Source of the DNA: Spirochaetota bacterium
Lineage (GTDB): Bacteria; Spirochaetota; UBA4802; UBA5550
Length of the DNA stretch: 49,568 nucleotides
NCBI GenBank assembly: GCA_003246895.1
Contig: QKCL01000079.1
Coordinates: 1 to 49,568, forward strand
Direction: 5' to 3'
Each line of letters opens with the position of its first letter. Position 1 is the stretch's first letter. Shown here piece after piece: positions 8,249 through 11,890 of the stretch. The notes under the pieces were generated by a model. The model was not told the DNA's origin and did not search any database. It worked only from the letters and a program-made list of their open reading frames with translations. A program made the translations under genes and the position numbers.

Positions 8249-8641
8249 ATGAGACATGAAAGTTACATTGAAGCTGAGAATTACTATGATATGGCAAGAT
8301 CCTGGATCGGCAATGGTGATAATCAGAAAGCCATGGATTGCCTTAAGCATGCGTTAAGCCTGAATCCGGACTTTATCTATGCCTATATTGATATGGCGGA
8401 GATTTTTGCCAGAGAGGACAACTATTGCGAAGCTCAGCGCGTTATTAAAAATGCCATCTATCATGACATGAAATTTCATAATCTCCATTATCTCATGGCA
8501 AAGTATGCATACAGGGAGAAGAATTTCGGCAAGGCACTGCAGTTTATAAACAGCGCCATAAATATTTCTCCGGAATATCTCTATGAGAGGGTGAAGAGGG
8601 TAATTCAGAGAAGGTATGACCAGGAGCACTGTCTAAAGTGA
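8249..8641 (+). CDS. Small TPR-repeat protein
   Basis: A 130-residue protein made almost wholly of about three tetratricopeptide repeats (about residues 8-110). Typical positions are visible: 'AMDCLKHALSLNPDFIYAYIDMA', split here across the first two helices, and 'ALQFINSAINISPEYLY' in the third unit. There is no signal peptide or membrane helix, so it should be cytosolic and act as a protein-binding adaptor; the partner is unknown. The start ATG has CGAGG nine bases upstream. Its last nine bases overlap the end of the convergent bioA gene, and no terminator separates the two. Confidence 0.75.
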   Translation: MRHESYIEAENYYDMARSWIGNGDNQKAMDCLKHALSLNPDFIYAYIDMAEIFAREDNYCEAQRVIKNAIYHDMKFHNLHYLMAKYAYREKNFGKALQFINSAINISPEYLYERVKRVIQRRYDQEHCLK

Positions 8642-9928
8642 CAGATACTCCCTGATTACCTCTGTCATTGTCTCTGTAAGTGTGTTTAGTTCTTTTTCTG
8701 AAATGATGAAGGGAGGCATTATGTAAACAAGCCTGCCGTATGGCCTTACCCAGATGCCTTTATCTACAAACATTCTCTGAATTTCGGCCATATCAACAGA
8801 ATTTTCAAGCTCAACTACACCTATGGCACCCAGAACACGGATATCTCTTACCCCTAGAACAGTCTTTATGGTAAAAAGATTTTCTTTCATGATGGATTCA
8901 ATTTTAAGAACACGCGCCTGCCAGTCCTCTTCAAGCAGAAGCCTTATGCTTGCAACTGCAACCGCACAAGCCAGGGGATTTCCCATGAATGTGGGGCCGT
9001 GCATGAACACACCGCCGTTTCCGGAAATTCCTTCAGCAACATCTGTTGTGGCAAGCGTCGCTGCAAGTGTCATGTACCCGCCCGTAATTGCTTTTCCAAG
9101 GCACATGATGTCAGGAGTTATGCCTGCCCATTCGCATGCAAAGAGTTTTCCTGTCCTTCCGAAACCTGTTGCGATTTCATCTGCGATGAGCAGAACATTA
9201 AATTCGCTGCACAGCTCCCTGAGTCTTTTTATATAATGGGGTGAGTATATTCTCATGCCGCCCGCACCCTGTACAACAGGCTCAATTATCACCGCGGCTA
9301 TCTGTTCGTGGTTTTCAGCAAGAGCGTTTTTCATTTGGCTTATGTATTTTTCATTCCACTGTGCATCAAATTTGCACTGCGGGGCTTCCACGAAAATATT
9401 TTTTGCCAGTACACCCTCAAACATTGAATGCATTCCGTTTACCGGATCGCACACAGACATTGCCCCGAATGTATCTCCATGGTAGCCGTTCATGACTGTG
9501 AGCATCCGGTTTTTCTCGGGCTTTCCCTTTGCATGCCAGTACTGTATGGCCATTTTCATTGCCACCTCAACCGAGACAGACCCTGAATCAGCAAAGAATA
9601 CATGCTGCAGTTTTTCAGGAGTTATTTTTATCAGGAGCTCTGCAAGTTCAACTGCCGGCCTGTGTGTGAGTCCCCCAAACATAACATGGCTCATTTTATC
9701 CAGCTGTTCATGGGCCGCCCTGTTCAGCACAGGGTTGTTGTAGCCGTGTATCACCGACCACCATGAGGACATTCCGTCTATGAGTTTGCGGCCGTCTTCA
9801 AGCTTTATGTATACTCCTTCACAGCTTTCAACTGTAAAGGCCGGAAGAGGATTCATCATTGATGTGTATGGATGCCATATGTGTCTTTTATCAAATTCTG
9901 TTATTCTGTCTGAGGCGGGTTTATTCAT
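8633..9928 (-). CDS. bioA: Adenosylmethionine-8-amino-7-oxononanoate aminotransferase
   Basis: A 431-residue class III PLP-dependent aminotransferase that makes 7,8-diaminononanoate from 8-amino-7-oxononanoate, with S-adenosylmethionine as amino donor, in biotin synthesis. Visible features: 'HIWHPYTSM' and 'GMSSWWSVIHGYNNP' (BioA-type substrate site), 'ADSGSVSVEVAMKMA' for phosphate binding, 'LIADEIATGFGRTG' with the PLP-binding Asp, and the Schiff-base lysine K279 in CLGKAITGG. It is downstream of bioD with an 8-base overlap and a good AGGAG site seven bases before its ATG, so the two are one operon, bioDA. Neither bioB nor bioF is in the window. Confidence 0.95.
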   Translation of the reverse strand: MNKPASDRITEFDKRHIWHPYTSMMNPLPAFTVESCEGVYIKLEDGRKLIDGMSSWWSVIHGYNNPVLNRAAHEQLDKMSHVMFGGLTHRPAVELAELLIKITPEKLQHVFFADSGSVSVEVAMKMAIQYWHAKGKPEKNRMLTVMNGYHGDTFGAMSVCDPVNGMHSMFEGVLAKNIFVEAPQCKFDAQWNEKYISQMKNALAENHEQIAAVIIEPVVQGAGGMRIYSPHYIKRLRELCSEFNVLLIADEIATGFGRTGKLFACEWAGITPDIMCLGKAITGGYMTLAATLATTDVAEGISGNGGVFMHGPTFMGNPLACAVAVASIRLLLEEDWQARVLKIESIMKENLFTIKTVLGVRDIRVLGAIGVVELENSVDMAEIQRMFVDKGIWVRPYGRLVYIMPPFIISEKELNTLTETMTEVIREYLSL

Positions 9929-10664
9929 TGCAGTCTCCTGTTAATAACGAACGGCATATTTTTTTAAAAGAGGGGTCGAGTTCCGTCCAGAATTCATTCT
10001 CCATGGGATTGAGTCCGTCTATGTATTTTATCTCCCCCAGAACTTTTACTGAGGTGAATTTCTCGATGGTAACGGTGTTGTCGCGTCTGATAAAGTCATT
10101 TTCATCCGTTTCAGGGGAGGTGTTGGTCATGACCACTCCAGCAATTTTAATATGATTATTTTTTAGTATGTATGCTGTATTTATGGCGTCATTTATACAT
10201 CCAAGTCTGTTTGCCGCTACAAGGAGAACAGGGGTATCCAGCTCCTTTATAAGGTCTATGGTGGTAAGGGAATCGGTAATGGGTACACTTACTCCGCCGG
10301 CTCCTTCGACGATTAGAAAATCATGATTATTTGACAGTATTTCCAGAGATTTTTTTATTACTGCCGGGTCAGGATATGGTTTACTTTCAATTTCTGCAGC
10401 AAGATGGGGGGAAGCTGCTGCTCTGTATATGTATGGACAGCTATGGAATTTTTCATTTTCAGGAATGCAGTACCCCGATGCCGCAAGTGCAAGGGAGATG
10501 TCCGGGGAGGAGAGGGTGCCGTCCGGTTCAACAGCGGCTCCTGACTGAACAGGTTTCATTGGGGCTGTGTTTATGCCCATTTTGAGCAGATTGCGCAGAA
10601 TTCCCGCTGTAACTACGGATTTTCCTATATCAGTTCCGGTTCCTGTTATAAATATGCTTTTCAT
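9921..10664 (-). CDS. bioD: Dethiobiotin synthetase
   Basis: A 247-residue ATP-dependent carboxylase that closes the ureido ring of dethiobiotin from diaminononanoate, CO2 and ATP, the step directly after BioA. The P-loop is at residues 8-16 (GTGTDIGKS), with the family's 'KPVQSGA' motif near residue 38 and 'VEGAGGVSVPI' near residue 115. Length is slightly above the usual 220-240. It is the first gene of the bioDA operon. GGAG stands eight bases before the ATG, and a promoter with an overlapping BirA-type operator lies 21-76 bases upstream. Confidence 0.95.
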   Translation of the reverse strand: MKSIFITGTGTDIGKSVVTAGILRNLLKMGINTAPMKPVQSGAAVEPDGTLSSPDISLALAASGYCIPENEKFHSCPYIYRAAASPHLAAEIESKPYPDPAVIKKSLEILSNNHDFLIVEGAGGVSVPITDSLTTIDLIKELDTPVLLVAANRLGCINDAINTAYILKNNHIKIAGVVMTNTSPETDENDFIRRDNTVTIEKFTSVKVLGEIKYIDGLNPMENEFWTELDPSFKKICRSLLTGDCNE

Positions 10665-10684: not shown

Positions 10685-10713
10685 ATTGTCAGAAGCGGTT
10701 GTTTGTTTGTCAA
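10685..10713 (-). promoter_or_regulatory. bioDA promoter
   Basis: On the minus strand a consensus -35 TTGACA (10713-10708) is followed after exactly 17 bases by GACAAT (10690-10685), then by the GGAG binding site and the bioD ATG. The -35 hexamer lies inside the proximal half of the BirA-type operator, so repressor binding would exclude RNA polymerase. Confidence 0.6.
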
Positions 10714-10740
10714 CCTGTTTTGTGGTCGATGGGTTAACAA
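10707..10740 (-). promoter_or_regulatory. BirA-type biotin operator
   Basis: TTGTCAACC (10707-10715), a 16-base spacer, then GGTTAACAA (10732-10740). The two arms are inverted repeats with eight of nine positions matching. Arm sequence and 16-base spacing equal those of the E. coli bio operator (TTGTAAACC-N16-GGTTTACAA), which is bound by biotinyl-AMP-loaded BirA. It lies between the divergent bioD and cobT genes and overlaps the bioDA -35 element. It predicts that a BirA with an N-terminal helix-turn-helix exists elsewhere in the genome. Confidence 0.8.
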
Positions 10741-10831: not shown

Positions 10832-11890
10832 ATGAATCTGCGGGACTATTTGAAGGGTATAAAACTGCCCGATGATGAAATTATGAAAAGGGCTCAGGAG
10901 AAGCTGGGCAATATGGCAATACCAATCGGGAGTCTGGGAGAGCTTGAGGTGATCGTCAGAAGGGTCTGCGGGATTACCGGAAGTATTCTACCATCAGTAG
11001 ATAAAAAATGTATCATAATAATGTGCGCAGATAACGGAGTCACGGACAAGGGTGTGAGTTCGTGCCCAAAGGATGTAACAAAACAGGTTTCAATAAATTT
11101 CACAAGGGGAATAACAACAGTGAATTCCCTTTCGGACCATGCGGGAGCAGACCTTCATGTTGTTGATGTGGGTATTGATGCAGATATAGATGTGCCCGGC
11201 ATCATAAACAAAAAGCTGAGAAAGGGCACCTGGGATATTACCGAGGGCCCTGCAATGACCAGGGAAGAAGCGGTGAGAATAATAGAAACAGGCATAGAGG
11301 CTGTCGGAGAGCTCAAGGCCAGAGGATACAATCTTCTCGGTACCGGCGAGATGGGTATCGGAAATACCACAACTAGCAGCGCGGTGGTTGCCGCCATTAC
11401 AGGCGGGGATATTGAGGAGCTTGTTGGCAGGGGGGCCGGGCTCACTAAAGAGGCCTTTGAATACAAGAAAGAGGTTGTGAAGACAGCACTGCAGATAAAC
11501 GGGCCTGATTCATCAGATGGTATCGATATTCTTGCAAAGGTTGGGGGTTTTGATATTGCCGGCCTTGCGGGTGTGTTTATTGGAGGAGCTTATCACAGGG
11601 TTCCGGTACTAATGGATGGATTTATCTCCGGCGCTGCTGCACTGGCAGCTGTTCTTATTGAACCGAAGGTTAAGGATTATATTTTTCCATCCCATGGTTC
11701 CGCTGAGCCCGGAACAAGGGCTGTGTTCAGGGCACTTGGAATGAAGCCCTATCTTGATCTTGGTATGAGACTGGGAGAGGGAACAGGGGCGGCCCTCGGC
11801 TTTAATATAATTGAGGCTGCCATGGCGACATACAGGCGTGTGGGCACTTTTGATGAGGCCAATTTTGATAAATATGTTCCTCTGGACTAG
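10832..11890 (+). CDS. cobT: Nicotinate-nucleotide-dimethylbenzimidazole phosphoribosyltransferase
   Basis: A 352-residue cytosolic enzyme that transfers phosphoribose from nicotinate mononucleotide to 5,6-dimethylbenzimidazole, giving alpha-ribazole phosphate for the lower loop of cobalamin. Seen: 'PIGSLGELE' near the N terminus, 'GEMGIGNTTTSSAV' around residue 172, and the catalytic glutamate E316 in LGEGTGAAL, corresponding to Glu317 of the Salmonella enzyme. GGGGGGAG precedes the ATG closely. No other cobalamin genes are near, and the 167-base upstream gap is too small for a cobalamin riboswitch besides the bio control region. A bidirectional hairpin follows the stop. Confidence 0.95.
   Translation: MNLRDYLKGIKLPDDEIMKRAQEKLGNMAIPIGSLGELEVIVRRVCGITGSILPSVDKKCIIIMCADNGVTDKGVSSCPKDVTKQVSINFTRGITTVNSLSDHAGADLHVVDVGIDADIDVPGIINKKLRKGTWDITEGPAMTREEAVRIIETGIEAVGELKARGYNLLGTGEMGIGNTTTSSAVVAAITGGDIEELVGRGAGLTKEAFEYKKEVVKTALQINGPDSSDGIDILAKVGGFDIAGLAGVFIGGAYHRVPVLMDGFISGAAALAAVLIEPKVKDYIFPSHGSAEPGTRAVFRALGMKPYLDLGMRLGEGTGAALGFNIIEAAMATYRRVGTFDEANFDKYVPLD

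Follow-up and report, generated by a model that had tools for sequence, protein, structure and literature searches.

Biotin synthesis in Escherichia coli is governed by BirA, a biotin ligase with an N-terminal helix-turn-helix (HTH), and this system is our source for the ligand, dimerization, occlusion, and direction of effect considered below. The E. coli operator, bioO, lies between bioA and bioBF. A query of 45 bases from the bioA-bioB intergenic region hit 5357 of 5426 E. coli genomes; in the one record inspected it fell between bioA and bioB, where the operator reads TTGTAAACC-N16-GGTTTACAA. According to the part of PMC545781 available to us, the consensus spacing of BirA sites is 14 or 15 bases, and delta-proteobacterial sites have arms such as TTGTcAACC and GGTTgACAA before bioB and bioF and number one or two per genome. 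A second described system concerns the pimelate precursor: in the available part of PMC10102598, a Desulfovibrio vulgaris pimelate cluster that encodes a dedicated acyl carrier protein is needed without biotin, as judged by mutant fitness, and a nitroreductase-like gene is reported for Syntrophobacter and Desulfobacter.

The predicted BirA operator before bioDA

The window (the whole 49,568-nucleotide stretch of DNA analyzed) contains an exact match to TTGTCAACC-N16-GGTTAACAA, also written TTGTCAACCTGTTTTGTGGTCGATGGGTTAACAA, at 10707-10740. Read on the minus strand, its arms occupy 10732-10740 and 10707-10715 and are separated by a 16-base spacer; the span given in the initial annotation, 10685-10740, also takes in the −10 hexamer discussed below. 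The arms are symmetric at eight of nine positions, and this is the sole place in the window with ≤3 mismatches, against 0.03 expected from 100 shuffles. The site has the form of the inverted repeat by which BirA operators are recognized, close to TTGTAAACC-N14..16-GGTTTACAA. It had been described as keeping both the arms and the exact spacing of the E. coli operator: the spacing of 16 is indeed that of bioO, but the arms are not identical, since 2 of their 18 bases differ, one in each arm (16 alike). The arm variants are the same as those given for delta-proteobacterial BirA sites, whereas the spacer of 16 is longer than the consensus spacing, 14 or 15 (PMC545781, as far as available).

The predicted operator sits between the minus-strand bioDA genes and, unlike in E. 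coli, a divergent cobT (10832-11890, plus strand; PF02277). Both bioD, encoding dethiobiotin synthase (9921-10664, minus strand; TIGR00347, 135.7 bits against a cut-off of 83.3), and bioA (8633-9928, minus strand; TIGR00508 and NF005940) score above NCBIfam equivalog cut-offs, and because they overlap by 8 bp they probably form a single transcript. As the initial annotation had described, the bioD-side arm contains a −35 hexamer, TTGACA (10708-10713, minus strand), that is followed after 17 bases by GACAAT (10685-10690, minus strand), a −10 hexamer by consensus match only, 20 bases before the bioD ATG. The predicted operator thus overlaps the predicted promoter, itself a consensus match, of these biotin synthesis genes. 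Promoter-like matches are cheap here: 301 bases hold four of them, the bioD-side promoter included, compared with a shuffle mean of 1.1. What speaks for the promoter is therefore that it falls within the operator arm, and the putative bioD promoter taken alone is weak evidence.

BirA and BirA-type sites in the genome

The initial annotation had predicted a DNA-binding BirA in this lineage, and both the ligase of the genome and its other biotin loci support this. The one biotin protein ligase gene detected encodes a protein with an N-terminal HTH_11 domain (53.0 bits, cut-off 25) as well as BPL_LplA_LipB and BPL_C, all above cut-off, an arrangement like that of E. coli BirA. The NCBIfam repressor-domain model TIGR00122 gave 51.8 bits, under its cut-off of 70. 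Nearly the whole protein aligns with solved structures: residues 5-312 with chains annotated either as biotin ligase or as the bifunctional ligase/repressor BirA (E values down to 1.1e-44), and residues 9-320 with 1bia, the BirA bifunctional protein of E. coli (E value, 1.1e-37). The gene lies on contig C37, near the bioF operon described below and separated from it by an oppositely oriented gene of the His_biosynth family.

Further copies of the motif, which the initial annotation had proposed looking for, are present before bioB, bioY, and an operon ending in bioF. The pattern TTGTYAACC-N14..17-GGTTRACAA occurs at two places in the 3.57-Mb genome, namely the window site and C37:21005-21037, and its reversed control at none. 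The C37 site (no mismatches, N15) is followed after 36 bases by a series of putative pimelate genes that ends in bioF, and birA is 5.7 kb from this site. A site with one mismatch (N15) lies upstream of bioB on contig C31, at a distance of 19 bases from the earliest candidate ATG and of 43 bases from the ATG that is preceded by a GGAGGG box; upstream of bioY on contig C27, another, with two mismatches (N15), is 48 bases away from the predicted start. When we scanned the whole genome for N15 sites with ≤3 mismatches, we found 22 places (4 for the reversed control), and the only ones with zero, one, and two mismatches were those before the pimelate-bioF operon, bioB, and bioY, respectively; the remaining 19 had three mismatches, and one of these was the window site out of register. 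With the perfect N16 site of bioDA, the motif therefore precedes all four of the biotin synthesis or uptake loci found (spacers of 16, 15, 15, and 15), each with a site of its own, in contrast to the E. coli arrangement. TTGACA forms a −35 in the gene-side arm of the bioDA, pimelate-bioF, and bioB sites, but not in that of bioY; among the 11 sites tabulated in all, the gene-side arm carries TTGACA in 7 and TTGACT or TTGACG in 2 more. BirA probably controls its own gene too: a weaker N16 site (three mismatches) lies 28 bases upstream of birA, although 2 of 300 shuffles were equally good.

From these sequence comparisons, we regard it as very likely that a biotin-sensing BirA repressor uses 10707-10740 as its operator and so controls bioDA. 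By analogy with E. coli, BirA would make biotinyl-5′-AMP and dimerize when biotin is plentiful; the dimer would bind both arms through its N-terminal winged helix and, since the bioD-side arm holds the −35 box, would exclude RNA polymerase and silence bioDA. Once unbiotinylated acceptor protein builds up, BirA would work as a ligase and the promoter would open. The same repressor would also control bioB, the pimelate-type operon, and bioY.

That BirA binds here but mainly or also governs the divergent cobT seems to us quite improbable. The cobT start is 91 bp beyond the operator, and the E. coli operator also stands between divergent genes; against this, the plus strand from operator to cobT has no sigma-70-like site, and the remaining sites of this genome serve biotin genes. 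The side effects on cobT that had been thought possible are thus without support.

BirA-type sites in related genomes

We compared 59 genomes, including that of the window, and found a BirA match in 37. Nine genomes have a BirA with an HTH, each confirmed by Pfam; absence of the HTH was judged by Pfam for G011 and, for the others, from where the match starts and, for some, from reading the N terminus. The strict pattern was found in none of the 58 relatives. A relaxed pattern gave 23 matches in the 59 genomes compared with 12 for its reversed control, so that those outside G000, G028, and G004 are mostly background; the matches in G008 and G021 were rejected as biotin sites, the surrounding genes not being biotin genes. 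Since pattern searches were empty or mostly background, we moved to scoring the regions ∼350 bp upstream of birA, bioD, bioB, and bioY, a scan that misses operon-internal genes and that left out the birA upstream regions of 7 of the 37 BirA genomes. There were 82 regions, 2 of which were too short and were dropped. Sites with ≤3 mismatches occurred in 9 of 20 regions from HTH-BirA genomes (the window's own included) compared with 1 of 60 from the rest, which takes in two genomes where no BirA was found. Counted by hand per BirA genome, sites were present in five of nine with an HTH (again including our own) and in 1 of 27 judged to lack it (Fisher P = 0.002, a guide only, because relatives share history and are not independent).

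Conservation of the motif upstream of bio genes in relatives, on which the initial annotation had let its claim depend, is partial. The motif lies before bioB or birA in several relatives with an HTH-containing BirA, clear cases being those before bioB in G028 (no mismatches, N14) and G051 (two mismatches, N13), and before birA in G004 (one mismatch, N14) and G009 (two mismatches, N14). The birA site of G014 has four mismatches and is too weak to stand alone, but its position is as in its neighbors; in G016 the corresponding stretch is partly N, and one half-site is readable. Near the genes examined in G042 and G058, both of which have an HTH-containing BirA, we saw no operator.

Three relatives show features of their own. 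The 13-base spacers of G051, found before birA-bioY (L123:3348-3378) as well as before bioB (L075:2483-2513), are shorter than the consensus spacing (14 or 15) given in the available part of PMC545781. In G042 (L120:3578-5077), the gene for the HTH-containing BirA is directly followed by bioY with no recognizable operator upstream, and this BirA may read a different motif. G004 has repeated ACGGATTA-type units beside birA (L116:4850-5140).

Farther afield, a search of further genome contigs with bioD yielded no confirmed relative. A search with BirA yielded 80 named, distant loci, the best 45% identical; 9 of these 80 contain the motif (≤2 mismatches, spacers of 10 to 20), compared with one place for the reversed arms.

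That the palindrome belongs to another regulator or arose by chance, and resembles the bio operator of E. coli by coincidence, seems to us very improbable: the genome does hold 18 further N15 places at three mismatches besides the out-of-register window site, but its best places are biotin genes and in relatives the sites accompany the HTH of BirA.

A putative pimelate operon and a birA-linked symporter

The operon behind the perfect C37 site (L004:7006-11896) consists of genes for a 99-residue protein in which a stretch weakly resembles FabZ (E value of 0.03 for the best PDB match), an SDR reductase, an acyl carrier protein, a protein of the nitroreductase family, a FabF-like ketosynthase, a 155-residue protein not assigned to a family, and bioF, whose best match is TIGR00858 (326.9 bits, under the cut-off of 426.45). 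No BioC scored over cut-off in this genome. To judge from its gene content, the operon looks like a Desulfovibrio-type pimelate route placed under BirA. The reductase, acyl carrier protein, FabF-like synthase, FabZ-like piece, and bioF are shared with the Desulfovibrio cluster, and the nitroreductase-like gene is as given for Syntrophobacter and Desulfobacter; unlike in the Desulfovibrio cluster, bioDA and bioB are found in other parts of the genome (PMC10102598, in the part available). The groups named in that part are Desulfobacterota and Chrysiogenetes. The present lineage may represent a different phylum, such that a Desulfovibrio-type pimelate operon may fall outside the groups named there. 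Among the 58 relatives, only G051 and G054 matched the ketosynthase at E values up to 1e-60, with 37% identity, and the G051 match lies, by eye, among ordinary fatty acid genes. The pimelate cluster may have been acquired.

Other genomes of the comparison carry a different gene beside birA. In G004, G009, G014, and G016, a sodium:solute symporter gene directly follows birA (L116:2134-4538, L117:2220-4637, L118:1994-4451, and L119:4042-6446), and upstream of birA there is a BirA-type site, of which only one half is readable in G016. The G014 protein was assigned to PF00474 by profile, and the G004, G009, and G016 proteins align to it. In G023 a symporter gene follows a birA that lacks the HTH, and in G011 one is 6 kb away. 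We found no BioY in any of these six genomes, and no bioB or bioD over cut-off.

The symporter that adjoins birA is therefore a candidate biotin importer, as judged from its gene neighborhood. Among named NCBIfam families below superfamily rank, the one that matches it best is PanF, the pantothenate symporter, at a score well under cut-off; for this reason pantothenate is a live alternative substrate. There was no match to the symporter in the 80 distant BirA loci, nor did the titles and abstract openings of the literature searched hold a description of a BirA-linked symporter. We would put at about even the chance that, in sister genera, BirA regulates birA as well as a biotin-importing PF00474 symporter that replaces both synthesis and BioY, while in the organism of the window this repressor governs a pimelate route based on acyl carrier protein instead.

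The predicted switch before bioDA is an ordinary vitamin switch, known biology in an unusual and little-known bacterial host. It extends the classical biotin repressor, with its predicted operator at four biotin loci, to this lineage, and indicates that an operator with the N16 spacing of E. coli also occurs in other bacteria. In relatives that apparently lack biotin synthesis, the regulon points to a symporter family as a candidate biotin importer; if this is true, the symporter would correspond, in bacteria and under BirA control, to the animal multivitamin transporter SMVT.
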